Shown: piece by piece, positions 7,485 to 62,669 of the stretch | Layout of the letters: each line of letters opens with the position of its first letter | Position numbering within the stretch: the stretch's first letter is position 1 | Translations under genes and position numbers: made by a program | Notes under the pieces: model-generated | Databases searched by the model: none | What the model saw: the letters and a program-made list of their open reading frames with translations, nothing else | What the model was told of the DNA's origin: nothing | NCBI GenBank assembly: GCA_019670725.1 | Contig: AP024629.1 | Location: 2,356,001 to 2,420,000 of the forward strand | Origin: Alphaproteobacteria bacterium SO-S41 | Lineage (GTDB): Bacteria > Pseudomonadota > Alphaproteobacteria > Micropepsales > Micropepsaceae | Reading direction: 5' to 3' | Length of the DNA stretch: 64,000 bases

Positions 7485-8081
7485 TCACGCAGTCGCGGCC
7501 GAGCGGTCCCAGAGGTTGGGAATGACGCTGTTGTTGTAGCCGGAGATGAAGGTTTTCGGCGTGCCGTCCTCGGCAAAGGTCGAGCGGCGGACGGCGCCGA
7601 TATTGGCGCCGTAGACATGGATGCTGACCGAGGCGCGGTCGGGATAAGCGTTGGAGACGCGGTGGATGTCGCCGACGCTGGGGGCGATGGCCTCGACGTC
7701 GCCGGCTTCGAGGCGGTGCGGTTCGCCGGCCGGGCCGAAGCCGAGATCGCCCTGGCGGTAGGGCTGCGAAAACTCAGCGCCGCGGAGGATGCCGACGAGG
7801 CCCCAGACGGTATGGTTGTGGATCGGCGTCGCCTGGCCTGGACCCCAGACGAAGCTGACGACCGAGAAGCGTTCGCGGCCGTCGCAGTGGAGGAGATACT
7901 GGCGATAGCGCTGAGGATCCGGCACCGCGAAGGCGTCGGGCAGCCAGTCGTCTTCGGCGACGAGCGTCTTCAGCAGCGCCCCGCCCTCGCCCAGTAACGC
8001 CGCCTCGTCGTCGGTGCGTTCGACGAGGGCGGCGATGTCGCCGACGAAGTCGCGCAAACGGTCGAGGCGGCGTGGGGGCAT
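7485..8081 (-). CDS. Cysteine dioxygenase-type cupin
   Basis: 198-residue cupin of the cysteine/3-mercaptopropionate dioxygenase family: a mononuclear iron enzyme that adds O2 to a thiol to give a sulfinate. The metal ligands are visible as His88 and His90 in TPIHNHTVWGLVG and His140 in GDIHRVSN; Arg60 in the RYRQYLL segment fits the substrate-carboxylate arginine. The Cys that forms the Cys-Tyr crosslink in mammalian enzymes is absent, as is usual in bacteria. It sits four bases after the TonB receptor stop and seven before the rhodanese start, so it is part of the sulfur operon. Whether cysteine, 3-mercaptopropionate or another thiol is the substrate cannot be told. Confidence 0.85.
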   Translation of the reverse strand: MPPRRLDRLRDFVGDIAALVERTDDEAALLGEGGALLKTLVAEDDWLPDAFAVPDPQRYRQYLLHCDGRERFSVVSFVWGPGQATPIHNHTVWGLVGILRGAEFSQPYRQGDLGFGPAGEPHRLEAGDVEAIAPSVGDIHRVSNAYPDRASVSIHVYGANIGAVRRSTFAEDGTPKTFISGYNNSVIPNLWDRSAATA

Positions 8082-8085
8082 GGCG

Positions 8086-43080: not shown

Positions 43081-46000
43081 TTAAGCGGCCGCCAGATCGG
43101 CCAGGCGGCGCAGGACCTGGGCGGCGCCTTTTAGGCGGTCGTCGGTGCCGGTCCAGTCGCGGATGACGACGACTTTTTGATCCGGGCGGACCTTCAGCGT
43201 TTTGGGGCTGTCGGTGATGAGTTTCATCAGGCCGGCGGGGTTGGCGAAGGTGTTGTTGCGGAAGGTGATGACCGCGCCCTTCGGACCGGCATCGATCTTC
43301 TCCACGGCAGCTAGGCGGCAGAGGCGCTTGATCGAGACGATCTGGAGGAGCTGTTCGACTTCGTCGGGCAGCTTGCCGAAGCGGTCGACCAGTTCGGCGG
43401 CGAAGGCGTTGATCTCGGCCTGGTCCTCGATGCCGGAGAGGCGGCGGTAGAGCGACATGCGAGTGTCGAGGTCGGGCACGTAGGCCTCGGGGATGAGGAC
43501 CGAGGCGCCGAGATTGATCTGGGGCGACCACTCGCCGGTATCGGCTTCCTCGCCGCGGCCGGCGCGCAGATTGGCGACCGCCTCCTCCAGCATCTCCTGG
43601 TAAAGCTCCATGCCGACTTCGCGGATGTGGCCGGATTGTTCGTCGCCGAGGAGATTGCCGGCGCCGCGGATGTCGAGGTCGTGGCTGGCGAGCGTGAAGC
43701 CGGCGCCGAGGGCGTCGAGCGACTGCAGGACGCGCAGACGCCGCTCGGCAGTTTCATTCAACAGGCGGCCGGCGGGTGTCGTGAGATAGGCGTAGGCGCG
43801 GACCTTGGAGCGGCCGATACGGCCGCGGAGCTGGTAGAGCTGCGCGAGGCCGAACATGTCGGCGCGGTGGACGACCATGGTGTTGGCGGTCGGGATATCG
43901 AGACCGGATTCGACGATCGTGGTGGATAGCAGCACGTCGAACTTGCGGTCGTAGAAGGCGTTCATGACGTCGTCGAGCTGGCCCGGCGGGAGCTGGCCGT
44001 GCGCGGTGGTGACACGGACTTCGGGGACCGTCTCCTTCAGGAATTCCAGTGTCTCGGCGAGATCGGCGATGCGCGGGACGACATAGAAGCTCTGGCCGCC
44101 GCGATAGTGTTCGCGCAGCAGCGCCTCGCGGATGGTGACGGGGTCGAGCGGGCCGACATAGGTGCGGACCGCGAGGCGATCGACCGGCGGCGAGGCGATC
44201 AGCGACATGTCGCGCACGCCCGAAAGCGCGAGCTGCAGCGTCCGCGGGATCGGCGTCGCAGTGAGCGTCAGGACGTGGACGTCGGTTTTGAGGTTTTTCA
44301 GGCGCTCTTTGTGGACGACGCCGAAATGCTGCTCCTCGTCGACGATGACGAGGCCTAGCGACTTGAAGCTGATCGATTTCGCCAGCAGCGCGTGGGTGCC
44401 GACGACGATGTCGATCTTGCCCTCGGCCAGTTCTTTTTTCGTCTCGGTTGCTTCTTTCGCTGTCACGAGGCGCGAGAGCTGGCGCACCTGGAGCGGCCAG
44501 CCGGCGAAGCGGGTGGAGAACGTCTTGTAGTGCTGGCGGGCCAGCAGCGTGGTCGGCACGACGACCGCGACCTGCTTGCCCGACATGGCGGCGACGAAAG
44601 CGGCGCGGAGGGCGACTTCGGTCTTGCCGAAGCCGACATCGCCGCAGACCAGGCGGTCCATCGGCTGGCCGCGGGCGAAATCCTCCATCGTGTCGGAGAT
44701 GGCGCGGGCCTGGTCCTCGGTTTCGTCGAAGGGGAAGCGCGCGGCGAATTCGTCATAGAGGCCCTGTGGCACGTCGAGCGTCGGAGCCTTCTTCATCGCG
44801 CGTTCGGCGGCGATGCGGATGAGGTCCGCGGCGATCTCGCGGATGCGGTTCTTGAGCTTCGCCTTGCGGCTCTGCCAGCCGGCGCCGCCGAGGCGGTCGA
44901 GCTGGATGCCTTCAGCGTCGGAGCCGAAGCGCGTCAGCAGTTCGATGTTCTCGACGGGCAGGAACAGCTTGCCGCCGTCATATTGCAGCTCAAGGCAGTC
45001 GTGCGGGGCGCCGAGGACCTCGATCGTTTGCAGGCCGAGATAGCGGCCGATGCCGTGATCGACGTGGACGACAAGATCGCCGACCGTCAACGCGGCAGCT
45101 TCGGCGAGGAAATTGGCGGCGCGCTTGGTCTTGCGCTGGGTGCGGATCAGGCGGTCGCCAAGAATGTCCTGCTCGCCGATGACCGCGAAGCCGCGGGCTT
45201 CGAAGCCACGCTCCAGCGGCAGAATGGCGAGCGCGCTGGCGGCGGCGGGCAGTGTGTTGATTTCCGACAGCGACGCCACGGCCGAGAGCTTCGCTAGGCC
45301 ATGGTCGGCGAGGACCGTGCCGAGGCGGTCGGCGGAGCCTTCGGTCCAACCGGCGAGCACAACGCGCTTCTTTGCCTTGGCGAGCGTTTGGATGTGGCCG
45401 ACGACGGCATCGAAGACGGTGCCTTCGGACTGGGTGCGTTCGGGGGCGAAGTCCCTGCCCGGCCGCCCACCGGCGTCGATGCCGTCGGGCACGTCGAAGG
45501 CGGAGAAGAACAGTGCGTCGCGGCCTTCCAGATGCTCGGCCCAGTTGTCGCGCGAGAGGTAGAGGCGGTCGGGCGGCAGCGGCTTGTAGTCGGCGACCTG
45601 CAGGCCCGGCGACTTGGCGGCGAGGTCGCGGGCGGAGACGCGGGCGTCGTAATATTCGTCGATCTGTTCCAGCCGCGCGATGATCGACTCTTCGACCTGG
45701 CTGTCGAAGGTGAGCCGCGCGTCGGGGACGTAGTCCAGGATCGTCTCCATGCGAGCGTGGAAGAGCGGCAGCCAGTGTTCCATGCCCTGATAGCGGCGGC
45801 GGGCACTGACGCTTTCGTAGAGCGGATCGTTGGCGTTGTTCTGGGCGCCGAAGGCCTGGATGTAGCCGGTACGGAAGCGGCTGACGGAGTCCGGGTCCAG
45901 CGGCGCTTCGCTGACCGGCAGGAGTTCGAGGCCGGCGAGGCGTCCGGTCGATTTCTGGCTTTCGGGGTCGAAGGTGCGGAGCGACTCGATCTGGTCGCCG

Positions 46001-46554
46001 AAGAAATCGACGCGGACGGGTTCGGGCAGGCCGGGCGCGAAGAGGTCCACGATGCCGCCGCGGACGGCGTAATCGCCGGCCTCCACCACCGAGCCGGCGC
46101 GCGTGTAGCCCTGCTTGTCGAGCCAGGCGGTCAGGGTCTCGATGCCGATATGGGTGTCGGCCTTTATGGCGAGGCGCGAGGCGTCGATCCATGCGCGCGG
46201 CGGCACGCGCTGCAGCAGCGCGCTGACCGTGGTGACCAGCACCTGCGGCCCGCGCTTGCCCTTGGCGAGTTCGGAGAGGACGGCGATGCGGCGCGCCAGC
46301 AGGTCGGTTCGCGGGCCGAGGCGGTCGTAGGGCAGACAATCCCACGCGGGAAGCGACTGGACTTCGAGGTCCGGCGCGAAGAAGCGCAGGGCGGCTTCGA
46401 AGGCGGCGGCCCGACTCTCATCACGGGCGATGTGGAGGACGGTGCCTTTGCGTGCCGCCGCGAGATCGCCGGCGAGCCAGGCGTCGTAGCCCTCGGGGGC
46501 GCCGCCGACGCGGGTGCGGCCCTTCCGCGCCAGGATGTTGCGGATCAGCTCCAC
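43081..46554 (-). CDS. mfd: Transcription-repair coupling factor
   Basis: 1157-residue Mfd: removes stalled RNA polymerase and recruits UvrA. In order: UvrB-like N-terminal domains (LVTTVSALLQRV, GDYAVRGGIVDLFAPG), RNA-polymerase-interaction/CarD-like domain (GDLVVHVDHGIGRYLGLQ), then RecG-like translocase motor with Walker A (CGDVGFGKTEVALRAAF), DEEQ box (VIVDEEQHFGV), TATPIPRTL and RGRIGRS motifs and a C-terminal TRCF domain. The GTG at 46554 (MELIRNILARKG) overlaps the sdhE end by ten bases. The reading frame stays open far upstream, but only antisense to recG, so it is not coding there. Confidence 0.93.
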   Translation of the reverse strand: MELIRNILARKGRTRVGGAPEGYDAWLAGDLAAARKGTVLHIARDESRAAAFEAALRFFAPDLEVQSLPAWDCLPYDRLGPRTDLLARRIAVLSELAKGKRGPQVLVTTVSALLQRVPPRAWIDASRLAIKADTHIGIETLTAWLDKQGYTRAGSVVEAGDYAVRGGIVDLFAPGLPEPVRVDFFGDQIESLRTFDPESQKSTGRLAGLELLPVSEAPLDPDSVSRFRTGYIQAFGAQNNANDPLYESVSARRRYQGMEHWLPLFHARMETILDYVPDARLTFDSQVEESIIARLEQIDEYYDARVSARDLAAKSPGLQVADYKPLPPDRLYLSRDNWAEHLEGRDALFFSAFDVPDGIDAGGRPGRDFAPERTQSEGTVFDAVVGHIQTLAKAKKRVVLAGWTEGSADRLGTVLADHGLAKLSAVASLSEINTLPAAASALAILPLERGFEARGFAVIGEQDILGDRLIRTQRKTKRAANFLAEAAALTVGDLVVHVDHGIGRYLGLQTIEVLGAPHDCLELQYDGGKLFLPVENIELLTRFGSDAEGIQLDRLGGAGWQSRKAKLKNRIREIAADLIRIAAERAMKKAPTLDVPQGLYDEFAARFPFDETEDQARAISDTMEDFARGQPMDRLVCGDVGFGKTEVALRAAFVAAMSGKQVAVVVPTTLLARQHYKTFSTRFAGWPLQVRQLSRLVTAKEATETKKELAEGKIDIVVGTHALLAKSISFKSLGLVIVDEEQHFGVVHKERLKNLKTDVHVLTLTATPIPRTLQLALSGVRDMSLIASPPVDRLAVRTYVGPLDPVTIREALLREHYRGGQSFYVVPRIADLAETLEFLKETVPEVRVTTAHGQLPPGQLDDVMNAFYDRKFDVLLSTTIVESGLDIPTANTMVVHRADMFGLAQLYQLRGRIGRSKVRAYAYLTTPAGRLLNETAERRLRVLQSLDALGAGFTLASHDLDIRGAGNLLGDEQSGHIREVGMELYQEMLEEAVANLRAGRGEEADTGEWSPQINLGASVLIPEAYVPDLDTRMSLYRRLSGIEDQAEINAFAAELVDRFGKLPDEVEQLLQIVSIKRLCRLAAVEKIDAGPKGAVITFRNNTFANPAGLMKLITDSPKTLKVRPDQKVVVIRDWTGTDDRLKGAAQVLRRLADLAAA

Positions 46555-46817
46555 GAGGCGCGCGGGAAGAAGTCGAACGCCTTGAACAAGGCGAAGACAG
46601 CGGTGTCGTGTTCGGGCGGTACCGGCGCCTTGCCCTGCCACCACTCGTAGATGTCCTGATCCTGTTCCTCGAGCAGCAGTTCGAAGGCGGTGAGCTGGTC
46701 GGGCGACAGCGCAGCCAGATGCGCGTCGGCAAAGCTGCCGATCAGCAGATCGGCCTCCTTGAAGCCGCGATGATGGGCCCGGTAGAGGACCCGCTTGAGG
46801 CGGATAGGGTCTGTCAT
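46545..46817 (-). CDS. sdhE: Succinate dehydrogenase assembly factor SdhE (DUF339)
   Basis: 90-residue helical protein that helps attach FAD to succinate dehydrogenase. The signature RAHHRGFKEADLLIGSFAD matches the RRGxKExDLLLG motif of the family, and a central LLEEQDQDIYEWW helix is also typical. It is upstream of mfd and overlaps its start. Together with recG across the divergent gap, this order is common in Alphaproteobacteria (from general knowledge). The promoter is likely in the 64 bases before recG. Confidence 0.93.
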   Translation of the reverse strand: MTDPIRLKRVLYRAHHRGFKEADLLIGSFADAHLAALSPDQLTAFELLLEEQDQDIYEWWQGKAPVPPEHDTAVFALFKAFDFFPRASWS

Positions 46818-46881
46818 GGTGCGGCGCGGATATAGGCGAGTTTGTCGTGAATCCCAACCCGGGTGCGGCTAGTCTGTTCCG

Positions 46882-48969
46882 ATGCGTCCCGAGATCCTGT
46901 TTTCCCTGTTTGCGCCCGTCACGACCCTGCCCGGGGTCGGGCCGCGCATGGCGGAGAAGTTCGCCAAGGTGGCGGGCGAGCGGGTGCTCGACGTGCTGTG
47001 GCTGCGCCCCGCGGGCTATGTGGACCGGCGGTTGCGACCGTCGATCGTGTCGGTGCCGGAGGGGAGTGTCGCGACGCTGGCGCTGAATGTGCTGGCGCAC
47101 CAGACGCCGCCGCATCCTAAGGTGCCCTACCGGGTGATCTGCAGCGACGATACGAGCGCGATCGAGCTGGTCTTCTTCGGTGGGCGGAATGATTACCTGT
47201 CGCGGCTGCTGCCGGAGGGCTCGCGGCGGATCGTCAGCGGGCGGGTCGAGCGCCATGACGGCCGGCTGCAGATGGCGCATCCCGACTACGCCGTCGCGCC
47301 GGACCAGGCCGACCAGATCCCCGAGATCGAGCCGGTCTATCCGCTGACCGAGGGACTGACCAACAAGGCGGTCGCCAAGGCGGCGCGTGGCGGGCTGCTG
47401 AACGCCCCTGATCTGCCGGAGTGGCAGGATGCCGCCTGGCTGGCGAAACAGCGCTGGGCGAGCTGGCGGAGCAGCCTGACGGCCATTCACGCGCCGCCGC
47501 ATGTCGACGAAGCGGCGCTGGAGGTGGCGCGGCGGCGCCTCGCCTATGACGAGGTGCTGGCGAACCAGCTGGCGCTGATGCTTATCAGGGCGCGGATGAA
47601 GAAGGCGGCGGGCCGGGTCGTGGACGGCAGCGGGGCGCTGCGGGCGAAGCTGCTGGCCGCCCTGCCCTTCAAGCCGACCGGCGCGCAGACGCGGGCCGTC
47701 CGCGAGATCGCGGCGGACCTCAAGACCGGCGAGCGTATGCTGCGGCTGCTGCAGGGCGATGTCGGCGCGGGCAAGACGCTGGTCGCGCTGATGGCCATGT
47801 TGATCGCGGTGGAGACCGGGGCGCAGGCGGCGCTGATGGCGCCGACGGAAATCCTGGCGCGGCAGCATATGGCGACGATCGGGCCGCTGGCGGCGCAGAT
47901 CGGCATTCGCGCGGAGGTGCTGACCGGGCGTGAGAAAGGCAAGGCGCGGACCGCGCTGCTGGCCGATCTCGCGGCGGGGAAGATCCAGATCCTGATCGGC
48001 ACCCATGCGCTGTTCACAGAGGACGTGGCGTTCGAGGACCTCGCGCTCGCCGTGGTGGACGAGCAGCACAAGTTCGGCGTGTCGCAGCGCATGAGCCTCA
48101 GCGGCCGCGGTGGACGGCCGACCCATGTGCTGGTTATGACGGCAACGCCGATCCCGCGGACGCTTTCTATGACGATCTATGGCGACATGGACGTCTCCAA
48201 GCTGGACGAGAAGCCGCCGGGGCGGCAGCCGATCGCCACTCGTGCGGTACCGCTGAACCGGCTGGAGGAGGTCGAGAACGCGGTGGCGCGGGCGATCCAG
48301 TCCGGCGACCGCGTGTTCTGGGTCTGCCCGCTGGTCGAGCAGAACGAGAAGCTGGATGTGACGGCGGTCGAAAGCCGCTTCCGCGAGCTGGAACGGCGCT
48401 TTGGCGACAAGGTCGCCCTCGCCCACGGCAAGATGAAAGCCGCGCAGAAGGACGAGGCGATGGAGCGCTTCCGCTCCGGCGCGGCTTCGGTGCTGGTGGC
48501 GACGACGGTGATCGAGGTCGGCGTCGATGTGCCGGAGGCGACGGTCATGATCGTGGAACATGCCGAGCGCTTCGGGCTCGCGCAGTTGCATCAGCTGCGC
48601 GGACGCGTCGGGCGCGGTAGCCGGGCGAGTTCGTGCCTGCTGCTCTATCAGGACGATCCGCCGCTGGGCGAAACCGCAAAGGCGCGGCTGAAGATCATGC
48701 GCGAGACCGAGGACGGCTTCGTCATCGCCGAGGAAGATCTGAAGCTGCGCGGAGCCGGCGAATTGCTGGGGACCAAGCAGGCGGGCACGCCGGATCTCCA
48801 TTATGCCGACCTTTTCCGCGATGCCGACCTGCTTTCCGTAGCGCGAGATGACGCCATGCTGGCGGTCGGGCGCGATGCTGAGTTGACGTCCACGAGAGGT
48901 GAGGCGTTGCGCGCCCTGCTCTATCTCTTTGAACGGGACGAAGCGGTGCGCTATCTGCGGTCCGGGTAG
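46882..48969 (+). CDS. recG: ATP-dependent DNA helicase RecG
   Basis: 695 residues. An N-terminal wedge/OB domain (LPGVGPRMAEKFAKV) is followed by a superfamily 2 helicase core: Walker A (LQGDVGAGKTLVAL), DEQH box (VVDEQHKFG), TATPIPRTL, and the C-terminal TVIEVGVDVPEATVM and QLRGRVGRG motifs. It remodels stalled replication forks and Holliday junctions. Length matches E. coli RecG (693). It is divergent from sdhE-mfd and followed 13 bases later by the phosphotransferase gene. Confidence 0.94.
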   Translation: MRPEILFSLFAPVTTLPGVGPRMAEKFAKVAGERVLDVLWLRPAGYVDRRLRPSIVSVPEGSVATLALNVLAHQTPPHPKVPYRVICSDDTSAIELVFFGGRNDYLSRLLPEGSRRIVSGRVERHDGRLQMAHPDYAVAPDQADQIPEIEPVYPLTEGLTNKAVAKAARGGLLNAPDLPEWQDAAWLAKQRWASWRSSLTAIHAPPHVDEAALEVARRRLAYDEVLANQLALMLIRARMKKAAGRVVDGSGALRAKLLAALPFKPTGAQTRAVREIAADLKTGERMLRLLQGDVGAGKTLVALMAMLIAVETGAQAALMAPTEILARQHMATIGPLAAQIGIRAEVLTGREKGKARTALLADLAAGKIQILIGTHALFTEDVAFEDLALAVVDEQHKFGVSQRMSLSGRGGRPTHVLVMTATPIPRTLSMTIYGDMDVSKLDEKPPGRQPIATRAVPLNRLEEVENAVARAIQSGDRVFWVCPLVEQNEKLDVTAVESRFRELERRFGDKVALAHGKMKAAQKDEAMERFRSGAASVLVATTVIEVGVDVPEATVMIVEHAERFGLAQLHQLRGRVGRGSRASSCLLLYQDDPPLGETAKARLKIMRETEDGFVIAEEDLKLRGAGELLGTKQAGTPDLHYADLFRDADLLSVARDDAMLAVGRDAELTSTRGEALRALLYLFERDEAVRYLRSG

Positions 48970-48982
48970 GAAACGAGGCACA

Positions 48983-58012: not shown

Positions 58013-58711
58013 TCAACTTGCGGGACGGAAGGTCTCGATCAGCAGCGGGTTGATGCGCGGGTGGACGTGCTGAAGCGACAGCCAGATCTGGCCGGTCGTC
58101 GGCGCGATCCAGAATTCGTTCCGGAACTTCCACTTCAGATCGTCGACCTTGCACTCTTCGCTGACGTGATGGGTCGCGATAGGTGTGCCTAGAACGGTGA
58201 CCGTTTCCTCGCCGAAATCCTGCGCGGTGCAGACGGCTTCGTGCGTGACGATGCCGCGCTCGGAGGTTTCGAACCAGCGCACACCGGTGACTGGCCCCGG
58301 TGCCGTCAGCGCGGTACGGACGAGGTCCTGCCCTTCCCAGCGGCCGCCGAGCACGTCGCGTGACAGTCCCTGCGTGCGGATCAGCCGGCCGTCGCGCAGC
58401 ACGATGCTGACCTGGTAGCCGAGTGTGTAGAGCTCGTCGCGATCCGTGCGGTTAGCGAGCAGAAACAGGAATTGCGGGTTGTCGTCGATGGTCACGCCGA
58501 CGCTGGCGAAGGGATAGTTCGCCGCCATCTTGCGGTCGATCTTGGCGGGGGCCGCGGGGGTGTCGCTGTCGGAGAAAATGCCTTCGGCGACGCCCTGAAG
58601 CATGGCGCCGGCCTGGCTGAAGCCGCCACCATCGGAGGAGCAGGCGGACAGCATGGCGGCGCCGAGCAGCAACGGCAGGAGGCGGCGGAGCGGGCTGGAG
58701 CGGGTCATCAT
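58013..58711 (-). CDS. yjbF: YjbF/GfcB-family lipoprotein
   Basis: 232 residues with a lipobox (LLLGAAMLSACSS). The mature part has the DUF2886-like beta pattern with NRTDRDELYTLG, GLSRDVLGG, GPVTGVRWFE and WIAPTTGQIWLSLQHVHP. In E. coli the yjbEFGH and gfcABCD operons serve exopolysaccharide or group 4 capsule export. The ATG at 58711 overlaps the yjbH stop by one base, so the two are cotranslated. The YjbG/GfcC component is not present here. Confidence 0.82.
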   Translation of the reverse strand: MMTRSSPLRRLLPLLLGAAMLSACSSDGGGFSQAGAMLQGVAEGIFSDSDTPAAPAKIDRKMAANYPFASVGVTIDDNPQFLFLLANRTDRDELYTLGYQVSIVLRDGRLIRTQGLSRDVLGGRWEGQDLVRTALTAPGPVTGVRWFETSERGIVTHEAVCTAQDFGEETVTVLGTPIATHHVSEECKVDDLKWKFRNEFWIAPTTGQIWLSLQHVHPRINPLLIETFRPAS

Positions 58712-61047
58712 CAAAGCCCCGGCGTCACGTCGAGCGGCCAGGTCCGGCGGATCTCCGCCTCGCTGGTATCGCGCAGTTCATTCCAGAGCGGATTGACGTC
58801 GTAGAGACGCTGGCCGCCGTCACGCACGAGCGAGCTGAGATAGGTCGACGTTTCATACTTGGTGTTGAACGGCGCGAGCCAGCCGAACGGCACGCGGATG
58901 ATCAGGCCCTTGTCGAAGCTGCCTTCGCCGAAATCCTCGAACGGCACATCGGTGAGCGTCGCAAAGGCGCCGATCTCGATGCCGGAATCGAACTTGCGCG
59001 TGATTTCGATCGTCGCACCATAGTCGCCGGCCAGATAGCGGCCGACATGCAGGTTCACGTTCAAACCGCGCCAGCCGACATTCTGCCAGTAGAGGCTGAC
59101 ATGGCCGGTGACGACATCGTAGTCGCGGAAGCCGAGCTGGCGATTGAAGTCGCGCTGCTTGAGATAATAGAGATCGGCACCGAGCGCCCAGTCCTTGCCC
59201 TGCGGCCGCCACACGACCTCGCCGCCGACACCGCCGAACATGTCTTCGATATAGCCAGCCTTCACCTGGTAGAAGGTCTCGGGCGAGAGCTTGCCGGTCT
59301 TCTGGACGATCAGCGATTCCAGGCCGTACTGACCCTCGTCGCGGTAGAGACGGAAATCCGTGCGGACATGCGGCAGGACCGATTTGCCGGGTTCCGGGTT
59401 CTTGACGGTGTCGATGAGGTCGCCGCTGACGGCGCCCTGCACCATCCAGCCATCGCCGAAGCGGACGGTCGCTTCTGCCTTGATGGCAAGACCGAAGCGG
59501 AACGGCTCGTCCGGGTCGAACACAAGCGTACGCGGCTGGGGCGTGATCGACCAATCGAACTTGGGATAATTGTCGTCGAAGCGAACCGCGTCGGCGGGAA
59601 TATCCATGCCGCCGGGGGCGATGCGGACGTATTCCAGGAGATCGTCGGTGGCAGCGAATTGCTGGACTGCGCGTTCATAGGCGGTGCGCGAGACGAGAAC
59701 CTCAGTGGACGGATAACCCTCCACCATGCTGGTCAGGTAGAAATACTCGACGCTGGGCGGCAGCGTGGTCAGCACGCGCAGCATGCGGTGAATGGCGTCG
59801 GTCTCGCGAACGTAGCGGTCGTTCTCGTAGTAAACGGAGACGTAGTTCGCCTTGAGGTCGATTGCCTGGAGACCCAGCGACTGATCGTTGGCGAGGTTCT
59901 TGAGGCCGCCGATGATCTGTTCACGAATGGCCGGCACATCGTACCAGCGGCCGCTGGTCATGATGTCCTGCATCGAGTTCGACGCGGGCGCGTCGGCGGC
60001 CTGCGCCACCAGGGCATTGCCCGCGGCGGCATAGTCGGTGAGCGACCATTCCGAGCTCGCCGAGGCGTAGCGGATGCCGCGCAGGCCAGTGAGATCGACC
60101 ACCGGGACGTCCTTGCCGGGTACGCCGCGCACCGCAGTACGGGGGCGCTGATCTTCGGGGCGTACGGAGGGCGGGATTGGCGGCTTGTCGAAGACCTTCA
60201 TCATTTCGGTCGTCGGATCGAAACGGACGGTCAGGCGGAAGCTGAACGTGTTGCCATAAAGGTAGGAGGCGCTGGCCTCGAGCAGCGTGTCGAAACGATA
60301 GGCCAGACCGAAATTGAATTGCGATTCCGGCGTGAACACGCCCCGCTCGCTTTCGTCGATATACTTGTCGCCGCTGTATTCGACGATCGCCTGCAGCCCG
60401 TCGATCGGGGTCTGCCAGACGACACCGCCGAACAAAGCGACGTTCTCGCCGCGGAAGATCGAGTTGAAGAGCGGGCGGCCGCCCTTGTCGTTGCCGGGAT
60501 CGAAGCGCGGGCGGTCCTTGAAGCGATCGCTGATCAACGAGAAGGGATTCTCGAACGTGCCCGCCGAGCCAAGCCGGCCCCAGCCAAGGCCCAGTGTGAC
60601 GTCGAAATCGCCGAAGGCCTTGGAGGCGACGATGTATTCGCCGCCGTAAATGCCGGTGCCGATGAGGTCCTGGAAACCAAGCGAGATGGCGGGAATATAT
60701 TCAGATTCTTCAACAAGATGCAGCTTCAGGCTGAAGCTGCGGTCGAGCAGATCCTTGTCGCCCTCGGACGGCAGGAAGTAGCTGTCGATCCGCGAATACC
60801 GGAACGCCGCTTCGAGCCAGGGAAAGACCTGAAAGCTGAGCGCAGTACGAAACGCGTGCGGACCTTGCGCAACCGTCAGGGCGAACTCGCCGTCCTGCAT
60901 CATGCGCGCCGACGGCATTTCGAGCAGGCCGGTATGACCATAGGTGTTCAGCGGCTGGGGCGCTGGCCAGTCGGTGGCGGTGGCGGTCGTCGCAAGCAGC
61001 GCTGCCGCCGCGCCGCCAGCCATCAAGCCGCTGAGAAAGGAACGCAT
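58711..61047 (-). CDS. yjbH: YjbH/GfcD-family outer membrane protein
   Basis: 778 residues. A signal peptide (GGAAAALLATTATAT) is followed by YGHTGLLEMPSARMMQDGEFAL and beta-rich repeats such as FQVFPWLEAAFRYSRIDSY, SLGFQDLIGTGIYGGEYIVASK and LYYLKQRDFNRQLGFRDYDV. These match YjbH-type proteins: beta-barrel-like, in the outer membrane, linked with polysaccharide secretion. It overlaps yjbF. Three small secreted protein genes lie upstream in the same direction. Confidence 0.84.
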   Translation of the reverse strand: MRSFLSGLMAGGAAAALLATTATATDWPAPQPLNTYGHTGLLEMPSARMMQDGEFALTVAQGPHAFRTALSFQVFPWLEAAFRYSRIDSYFLPSEGDKDLLDRSFSLKLHLVEESEYIPAISLGFQDLIGTGIYGGEYIVASKAFGDFDVTLGLGWGRLGSAGTFENPFSLISDRFKDRPRFDPGNDKGGRPLFNSIFRGENVALFGGVVWQTPIDGLQAIVEYSGDKYIDESERGVFTPESQFNFGLAYRFDTLLEASASYLYGNTFSFRLTVRFDPTTEMMKVFDKPPIPPSVRPEDQRPRTAVRGVPGKDVPVVDLTGLRGIRYASASSEWSLTDYAAAGNALVAQAADAPASNSMQDIMTSGRWYDVPAIREQIIGGLKNLANDQSLGLQAIDLKANYVSVYYENDRYVRETDAIHRMLRVLTTLPPSVEYFYLTSMVEGYPSTEVLVSRTAYERAVQQFAATDDLLEYVRIAPGGMDIPADAVRFDDNYPKFDWSITPQPRTLVFDPDEPFRFGLAIKAEATVRFGDGWMVQGAVSGDLIDTVKNPEPGKSVLPHVRTDFRLYRDEGQYGLESLIVQKTGKLSPETFYQVKAGYIEDMFGGVGGEVVWRPQGKDWALGADLYYLKQRDFNRQLGFRDYDVVTGHVSLYWQNVGWRGLNVNLHVGRYLAGDYGATIEITRKFDSGIEIGAFATLTDVPFEDFGEGSFDKGLIIRVPFGWLAPFNTKYETSTYLSSLVRDGGQRLYDVNPLWNELRDTSEAEIRRTWPLDVTPGL

Positions 61048-61292
61048 CGGCCGCTACCTAAACTTGCCTTTGGGATGTCGCCACACCCGCGTGGAAGAGC
61101 CGTAAGCTAGAAAACGCCAGCGTGCGGCGCAAACGAAAAGGGACTCCCCGGGGGCGCCCCTTTGCCCCTTCCGTCTAACGGCGATTCCGCTGCCGGGCTA
61201 TGGCGATGATCGCAATTGGCGCGATATGCGGCTTACAAAATGACAAAGGGACGCTCGCGCGTCCCTTTGCAGAAATCGGTGGATGTCAGGCT
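61048..61292. other. Intergenic region upstream of yjbH
   Basis: 245 bases with a terminator (61245-61268) for the upstream small gene and a GC-rich run near 61137-61170 that could fold but has no clear partner pairing. The yjbH promoter probably lies here. No gene is seen. Confidence 0.5.
61245..61268 (-). terminator. Rho-independent terminator of small paralogue 1
   Basis: AAAGGGACGC (61245-61254) pairs perfectly with GCGTCCCTTT (61259-61268), loop TCGC. On the minus strand it is followed by a GTCATTTTG tail. It lies about 24 bases past the stop. Confidence 0.75.
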
Positions 61293-61553
61293 CTAGTTCG
61301 AGCTGTCGTCGTCGTCGTCGGCAACGGCGATGATGATACCGATGGCGATCGCCGCGGCGAGCGCGATGAGCCACCAGTTCTGGCTGGATGACGCTTCCTG
61401 GACGGTGGCGGCAGGCGCGGGGCCGGCGGGCTCAAGAACCGGCGCGGGCTGCGGAGCAGGCTCGATCGGCGTGCCCTGGCCGTTCGCCAGTGCACCAGTG
61501 GTCAGAGAGGCAGCGAGAGTCGCAGCCGTTGCGAGCGATACAAAATGCTTCAT
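61293..61553 (-). CDS. Small secreted protein, GfcA/YjbE-position paralogue 1
   Basis: 86 residues. A signal peptide (MKHFVSLATAATLAASLTTG) is followed by a Pro/Ala-rich linker (GTPIEPAPQPAPVLEPAG), a short Ser/Gln link, a hydrophobic helix (NWWLIALAAAIAIGIIIAV) and a run of Asp (DDDDDSSN). It differs from the two paralogues upstream at only a few positions in the mature part. E. coli GfcA/YjbE are also small, secreted, low-complexity proteins with a hydrophobic segment at the head of the operon, so a matching role is inferred. The longer in-frame start at 61580 is unlikely. Confidence 0.75.
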   Translation of the reverse strand: MKHFVSLATAATLAASLTTGALANGQGTPIEPAPQPAPVLEPAGPAPAATVQEASSSQNWWLIALAAAIAIGIIIAVADDDDDSSN

Positions 61554-61646
61554 CGGTAGTCCTCCTTGCTTGGCCATCAATTGATCTCAGTCGACCAAAG
61601 CTTAGTCGCGTGACTAGCATCTGCCAATCACAGGATTACGACAAAA

Positions 61647-61675
61647 CAAAAAAGGACGCCCGAGGGCGTCCTTTT
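61647..61675 (-). terminator. Rho-independent terminator of small paralogue 2
   Basis: AAAAGGACGCC (61650-61660) pairs with GGCGTCCTTTT (61665-61675). On the minus strand it is followed by TTTTGTTTTG. It lies about 30 bases past the stop. Confidence 0.8.
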
Positions 61676-61704
61676 CCGCATTCGACTAAAAGCCGAATTA
61701 ATTC

Positions 61705-61962
61705 TTAGTTCGAGTCGTCGTCGTCATCCGAGACGGCGATGATGATGCCGATGGCGATGGCGGCGGCCAGCGCGATCAGCCACCAGTTCTGGCTGGACGA
61801 CGCTTCCTGGACGGTCGCGGCGGGCGCCGGGCCGGCCGGCTCAAGCGCCGGGGCGGGCTGGGGGGCGGGCTCGATCGGCGTGCCCTGGCCGTTGGCGAAG
61901 GCGCCGGTCGTCAGAGAGGCCGCCATGGCCGCAGCGGTGGCAAGGGAAAGAATACGCTTCAC
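61705..61962 (-). CDS. Small secreted protein, paralogue 2
   Basis: 85 residues: signal peptide (MKRILSLATAAAMAASLTTG), Pro/Ala linker, hydrophobic helix (NWWLIALAAAIAIGIII) and Asp-rich end (SDDDDDSN). From the FANGQG cleavage region on it is identical in protein sequence to paralogue 3, although the DNA differs at several silent positions. This suggests selection on the protein. It has its own terminator and is likely expressed on its own or as part of a small array. Function is unknown. Confidence 0.75.
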   Translation of the reverse strand: MKRILSLATAAAMAASLTTGAFANGQGTPIEPAPQPAPALEPAGPAPAATVQEASSSQNWWLIALAAAIAIGIIIAVSDDDDDSN

Positions 61963-62093
61963 GAAACAATCCTCCTAATTGGTCCCCGCCACAGCGGCGG
62001 GAGGCAGTGCTCCAAACACTCGACTCGAAAGGTACGGGAGTCGTGACGGGAAAACAATCCGGTGCGACAACACGTTCCATGACATTTAAAACA

Positions 62094-62121
62094 AAAAGGA
62101 CGCCCAAAAGGGCGTCCTTTT
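62094..62121 (-). terminator. Rho-independent terminator of small paralogue 3
   Basis: AAAAGGACGCCC (62094-62105) pairs perfectly with GGGCGTCCTTTT (62110-62121), loop AAAA. On the minus strand it is followed by TGTTTT. It is nearly the same as the terminator at 61647-61675. Confidence 0.82.
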
Positions 62122-62148
62122 CGCATCCGGCAGATGCCGAATTAATTC

Positions 62149-62406
62149 TTAGTTCGAGTCGTCGTCGTCATCCGAGACGGCGATGATGATGCCGATGGCG
62201 ATAGCAGCGGCCAGGGCGATCAGCCACCAATTCTGGCTGGACGAGGCTTCCTGGACGGTCGCGGCAGGGGCCGGGCCGGCAGGCTCGAGCGCCGGAGCGG
62301 GCTGGGGGGCCGGTTCGATCGGCGTGCCCTGACCGTTCGCGAACGCCGCGGTCGACAACGTGGTGGCGAGGGCCGCCGCAGTGGCGAGCGAAAGGATACG
62401 CTTCAT
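62149..62406 (-). CDS. Small secreted protein, paralogue 3
   Basis: 85 residues: MKRILSLATAAALATTLSTA signal peptide, then the same mature part as paralogue 2 (Pro/Ala linker, NWWLIALAAAIAIG helix, SDDDDDSN end). The start at 62406 is the methionine of the signal peptide; the in-frame 62451 start adds 15 unconserved residues. It is the first of three tandem copies upstream of yjbH-yjbF. It may end up as a single-span membrane protein with an acidic tail. Confidence 0.75.
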   Translation of the reverse strand: MKRILSLATAAALATTLSTAAFANGQGTPIEPAPQPAPALEPAGPAPAATVQEASSSQNWWLIALAAAIAIGIIIAVSDDDDDSN

Positions 62407-62594: not shown

Positions 62595-62669
62595 TGGTGA
62601 GCCCAGATGGATTCGAACCATCGACCCCCTGATTAAAAGTCAGATGCTCTACCGCTGAGCTATGGGCCC
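62595..62669 (-). tRNA. tRNA-Lys (anticodon TTT), CCA encoded
   Basis: A full cloverleaf on the minus strand. The acceptor stem is GGGCCCA with TGGGCTC, then discriminator A and an encoded CCA. The D-arm is GCTC-AGCGGTA-GAGC, the anticodon arm is TCTGA-CTTTTAA-TCAGG (anticodon TTT), and the T-arm is GATGG-TTCGAAT-CCATC. All stems pair (two G-U). It lies 67 bases downstream of tgt in the same direction. Confidence 0.95.

Follow-up and report, generated by a model that had tools for sequence, protein, structure and literature searches.

In Escherichia coli, polysaccharide export loci of the gfcABCD/yjbEFGH type have a small protein of low complexity as their first component, namely GfcA in the group 4 capsule operon gfcABCDE-etp-etk and the exported YjbE (PF11106), which heads the yjbF...yjbH operon. 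The capsule phenotype is disrupted when any one of the gfc genes is lost; GfcB adopts a LolA-like fold, and GfcD is located in the outer membrane. gfcA is without known function, and it has been speculated that its product is O-antigen-modified and routed to GfcD (PMC8592465). GfcA is likewise uncharacterised in work that models GfcD as the exporter of lipid-anchored polysaccharide (PMC11494523). A search of one literature library turned up no paper on such peptides in Alphaproteobacteria. Here we describe three nearly identical small genes that lie in tandem upstream of yjbH and yjbF in Alphaproteobacteria bacterium SO-S41 (family Micropepsaceae; GCA_019670725.1), within a stretch of 64,000 nucleotides (nt) of contig AP024629.1 (forward-strand positions 2,356,001 to 2,420,000), which we call the window. 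The reading we favour, to which we give an even chance, is that they are counterparts of GfcA and YjbE, amplified in tandem and accessory to YjbF-YjbH export; most likely they correspond to the small first component of loci of this type.

Three small genes upstream of yjbH and yjbF

A first-pass annotation of the window, made from sequence alone, had described three small secreted proteins, each built of a signal peptide, a linker of Pro and Ala, a hydrophobic helix and an Asp-rich tail, and each with its own terminator. Reading of the open reading frames (ORFs) bears out this anatomy. All three ORFs lie on the minus strand at the places noted, with 61293, 61705 and 62149 as their 3' ends, and starts were picked to give matching signal peptides. 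Copy 3, the first of the array after a tRNA-Lys gene, spans 62149..62406 (likely ATG start at 62406), copy 2 spans 61705..61962 (likely GTG start at 61962), and copy 1, the last, spans 61293..61553 (likely ATG start at 61553). The proteins are 85, 85 and 86 residues long, respectively. One 270-nt direct-repeat family comprises all three copies (78-89% identity to the middle copy), which are spaced at 409 and 444 nt.

A simple hydropathy scan, used for the calls of signal peptide and helix, gave each protein a signal peptide, a low-complexity linker, a single hydrophobic helix and an acidic tail. In copy 3, AFA is followed by the linker NGQGTPIEPAPQPAP, the helix QNWWLIALAAAIAIGIIIAV and the tail DDDDDSN, and the mature protein of copy 2 is the same. 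In all three copies NGQG is preceded by AFA or ALA, which suits cleavage by signal peptidase, and all share the linker NGQGTPIEPAPQPAP(A/V)LEPAGPAPAATVQEASSSQ, the helix NWWLIALAAAIAIGIIIAV and the tail (S/A)DDDDDS(S)N. Small these proteins are, yet the label 'secreted' is uncertain because the helix, with a Kyte-Doolittle mean of 3.1 over 16 residues, is hydrophobic enough to serve as a membrane anchor. They are probably membrane-anchored rather than free. Neither they nor GfcA match any Pfam family, and searches of the small proteins against Pfam and NCBIfam gave nothing above the cut-off. Weak matches to SteA-like_C, BatA and two_anch cover the hydrophobic helix alone and were rejected. A sorting signal of the exosortase/rhombosortase type, in which the segment after the helix is expected to be basic, was also dropped, that segment being acidic here.

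Each copy is followed by a GC-rich hairpin and T-run on the minus strand, with folding energies of -22 to -27 kcal/mol. The terminator of copy 3 is at about 62088..62122 (a 12-bp perfect stem with a 4-nt loop), and those of copy 2 and copy 1 are at 61646..61679 and 61243..61270. The separate terminators would imply separate promoters; a scan for sigma-70 consensus sequences was uninformative, with 1 found versus 0.9 expected.

The position of the array, where the annotation had likened it to that of GfcA or YjbE, was confirmed by Pfam matches over nearly the full length of both partners. Directly downstream of the array lie yjbH, of the GfcD/YjbH family (58711..61047, minus strand; PF06082, 646.9 bits, profile positions 2-657 of 658), and yjbF, encoding the GfcB/YjbF lipoprotein (58013..58714, minus strand; PF11102, 100.4 bits), whose product has a lipoprotein-like N-terminus (...LGAAMLSACSSDGG). 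yjbF overlaps the end of yjbH by 4 nt, leaving no room for a gene in between, and thus the GfcC/YjbG gene that lies between gfcB and gfcD in gfcABCD/yjbEFGH operons is lacking at this site in the window. On the other side the array is bordered by tRNA-Lys(ttt) (62595..62669, minus strand), which is the same neighbour in two further genomes of the genus, G011 and G014. Other genes in the neighbourhood checked include an epimerase, thiolase-like genes, an ABC transporter and Mfd. The open frame at 43081-48981 of the window has 1966 codons, of which the match to TRCF/Mfd starts at about residue 937; the initial ~900 residues are without a family match and the start is probably over-extended.

GfcA has the order signal peptide, Thr-rich stretch, GGVAAGAVGTATVVGVATAVGVATLAVVAAND, SGDGG (in an NDSGDGG tail) and Thr tail. 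It resembles the window proteins in being small, with a low-complexity linker, one hydrophobic helix and an Asp-containing tail, and in being encoded beside GfcB/YjbF and GfcD/YjbH homologues. The window proteins belong to the positional and architectural class encoded beside homologues of yjbF/gfcB and yjbH/gfcD. Unlike them, GfcA has a Thr-rich rather than Pro/Ala-rich linker and a Thr-repeat tail, and is a single copy in one transcript. In sequence the E. coli proteins are different, as the annotation had stated: no significant similarity to GfcA or YjbE was found by Pfam or by profile comparison.

The same architecture beside yjbF in other genomes

A protein-based scan of genome contigs returned one relative, from the same genus, and the wider class was therefore reached through a scan of neighbourhood and architecture. 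YjbH was detected in 41 of the 96 genomes of the family and in 30 of 241 genomes of the class. A small gene of the architecture described above stands directly beside yjbF at 25 of the 46 loci with detectable yjbF, a count made after by-eye removal of the false matches L074 and L083. Of these loci, 13 belong to the same family and the remaining 12 are spread over nine others, and nearly all of the small genes are convergent with yjbF. The initial scan also picked up OPX fragments and antisense frames and was followed by a strict one, run on matched control regions as well. Requiring signal peptide, helix and acidic tail, the strict scan gave at class level 14 matches in 279 kb of yjbH loci versus 1 match, evidently false, in 300 kb of control from the same genomes (p=3e-4). 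The co-occurrence with yjbH and yjbF that the annotation had proposed to look for elsewhere is thus found.

Gene order at these loci varies. At L118 it is small gene, yjbF (reverse), an OPX gene with SLBB and fused GfcC domains, yjbH and a glycosyltransferase, while at L121, from another family again, the small gene is directly upstream of yjbH. In the loci read in detail, a glycosyltransferase and an OPX/SLBB gene, which in one case has a GfcC domain, are close by. Two or three copies of the small gene are present at L120, L124 and L129. No small gene of this kind accompanies the OPX polysaccharide export loci found elsewhere in the source genome (G000) and in its sister genomes.

Within the family, the large genus g5 has a small protein of the same layout beside yjbF, with signal peptide, linker, polar tail and, in some members, a WWL(V/I)-type helix. 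It differs from the window proteins in its linker (GKPAGVKxAQ versus NGQGTPIEPAP), its Thr-rich tail and its many dispersed paralogues, and its gene is convergent with yjbF whereas the window array is upstream of yjbH. Profile comparison with hhalign linked the window type to the g5 type at 91% probability, over helix and tail only, and the g5 type to GfcA-like proteins at 95%, over the signal peptide; sequences of such low complexity fit either common descent or convergence. Members of the g5-type profile occur in 45 of the 96 family genomes, with up to 12 per genome. Within g5, presence of the small protein is associated with yjbH: both were present in 29 genomes, yjbH only in 5, the small protein only in 14 and neither in 21 (Fisher p=1.5e-4, with no correction for phylogeny or incomplete assemblies). 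Most of the best-scoring g5 copies sit at the yjbH locus. Pairs of copies occur in G028 and G055, and the g5 genomes G024, G053 and G068 hold many dispersed GKPAGVKxAQ paralogues, some as tandem pairs.

Among the 96 family genomes, the whole small protein has close relatives in the same genus only, namely in G000, G011, G013 and G014; a fifth genome of the genus, G012, has neither the small protein nor yjbH. In G014, which has small genes at both contig ends, a diverged member (LWLIGLGVAAVVGVGALIIDDEAGDSSS) is directly upstream of yjbH (L030), and the tgt-linked contig carries two copies. A further copy in G013 (L027, G013:C157, about 7826-8083) and two in G014 (L029, G014:C149, 3660-4617), one of them a variant with a Ser/Asp/Thr tail, have other surroundings, next to genes for a multicopper oxidase and a ferritin-like (Dps-type) protein. 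The bridging form at L030 and the Ser/Asp/Thr-tailed form at L029 connect the Asp-tailed with the Thr-tailed types.

Age and homogenisation of the array

Copies 2 and 3 encode identical 62-residue mature proteins and differ at 13 synonymous and 0 non-synonymous sites; the probability of all 13 being silent under random change is ~2e-8. The silent-only differences reported in the annotation are thereby upheld, and the ratio supports its view that selection acts on the protein. Gene conversion, as set out below, would also keep the copies alike.

In the sister species G011, three copies, preceded by tgt and tRNA-Lys, end one contig, and another copy opens the yjbH contig. By its upstream and signal-peptide sequence, window copy 3 is the orthologue of G011 copy 1: the upstream 90 nt are 72% identical to G011 copy 1 versus 53% to window copy 2, and the signal-peptide region 93% versus 74%. 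In the mature region the relation is reversed, with 88% to G011 copy 1 versus 93% to window copy 2, and the contrast between regions is significant (Fisher p=0.0035). The linker is likewise genome-specific, reading PAPQPAP(A/V)LEP in all window copies and PAPAPAPLEP in all G011 copies. Since promoter and signal-peptide regions track orthology, the array is older than the species split, and the homogenisation of mature regions within each genome indicates gene conversion under purifying selection. Between copy 1 and yjbH lies an orphan hairpin that resembles a terminator (about 61120 or 61131 to 61190, minus strand). It is the fourth member of a repeat (D2) and matches the terminator of the additional copy in G011, which suggests copy loss in the window; it is probably the relic of a lost fourth copy.

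High identity and tandem layout could also mean that a small ORF without function was duplicated by accident in recent times, an outcome the annotation had itself named as fatal to its reading. The 13:0 ratio of silent to replacement changes, the orthologous copies in the sister species, the conservation of the mature domain in four species and the individual terminators all argue against such an origin, which we hold to be highly improbable.

A shared linker motif and possible roles in export

The arm of the small proteins starts NGQG(T/S)P(I/V)EPAP. The same core is found at the mature N-terminus of a beta-barrel OMP_b-brl porin in G000, G013 and G014, with the variant NGMGTPVEPPP in G012, and, in each of the five genomes of the genus, as an internal insert of a DUF4139 protein, with EPPP for EPAP in G014. 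In the source genome the sites outside the array, in the DUF4139 protein and the porin, are at G000:C1:2460072-2460097 (L005, L184) and G000:C1:871153-871178 (L004, L036). The motif is not in the paralogue of the DUF4139 protein, and a degenerate DNA pattern for the core had no hit in a sample of 384 other alphaproteobacterial genomes. That unrelated exported proteins retain the same stretch of about ten residues makes it likely that some factor recognises the motif or that it has spread by DNA exchange.

On the observed anatomy, terminators, class-wide neighbourhood, selection and conversion we base the following proposal for topology, binding partners and export role. Each small protein would be translated from a short transcript of its own, exported through Sec and cleaved after AFA or ALA. 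It would then be retained in the inner membrane by its single helix, a bitopic topology favoured because the hydrophobicity of the helix exceeds what freely secreted proteins usually show. The Pro/Ala arm starting NGQGTPIEPAP would extend into the periplasm, with the short acidic tail in the cytoplasm, and would act as an accessory for YjbF, the periplasmic lipoprotein, and YjbH, the outer-membrane double barrel, either docking them or presenting or carrying polymer. Tandem copies would raise dosage. Frequent company with yjbF and yjbH in varied gene orders and orientations argues for participation in the same export step.

Several observations weigh against the proposal. Bitopic proteins do not usually carry an acidic tail on the cytoplasmic side. 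PF11106, which recognises E. coli YjbE at 5e-33 (113.6 bits), does not match the three window proteins at E-values up to 1, and hhalign of the window type with GfcA-like proteins reached a probability of 38%, over helix and tail only of low-complexity sequences. The yjbH-yjbF pair of the window lies outside any polysaccharide synthesis cluster. The linker motif occurs in the porin and the DUF4139 protein, also in G012 without yjbH; g5 has dispersed copies, and 14 genomes in which the small protein is found and yjbH is undetected; and the extra G013 and G014 copies are away from yjbH, so that the family is not restricted to that gene. These last three would be expected of a family of small membrane peptides with a general envelope or stress role, for which the yjbH site is one of several chance or historical places. 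We think this doubtful, as chance does not explain adjacency to yjbF/yjbH in ten or more families in varied order and orientation, nor the placing of most best-scoring g5 copies at the yjbH locus.

A third role would be that of cargo. The small proteins would be polymer-modified in the periplasm, on Ser/Thr of AATVQEASSSQ, and delivered by YjbF and YjbH to the outer membrane, where they would anchor surface polysaccharide, the many copies reflecting stoichiometric consumption. Low-complexity stretches rich in Pro, Ala and Ser are compatible with O-glycan acceptor sites. Thr/Ser-rich tails are common among the class-level relatives, and tandem or multiple copies recur independently (L120, L124 and L129; the pairs in G028 and G055). 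The window proteins have few Ser/Thr, and the helix should keep them in the inner membrane; we consider the idea unlikely here. It was proposed by Larson et al. for E. coli GfcA (PMC8592465). An extended version, in which such peptides are general in alphaproteobacterial YjbF-YjbH export as multicopy, consumable polymer carriers or anchors and, in this genus, the NGQGTPIEPAP arm is a tag shared with the porin and the DUF4139 protein and read by one envelope factor, seems to us very unlikely.

Under the favoured reading, as accessories of YjbF and YjbH, small GfcA-like membrane peptides are likely an overlooked part of the yjbF-yjbH export machine. Studies of the E. coli group 4 capsule assigned no function to GfcA and YjbE, which have been regarded as a peculiarity of enterobacterial operons. 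The finding of similarly built peptides next to yjbF in many alphaproteobacterial families, often in several copies, suggests a component conserved by architecture and not by sequence, which, if true, would account for the failure of family models to detect it. The near-identical copies with their own terminators in this genus make the role of this component directly testable.

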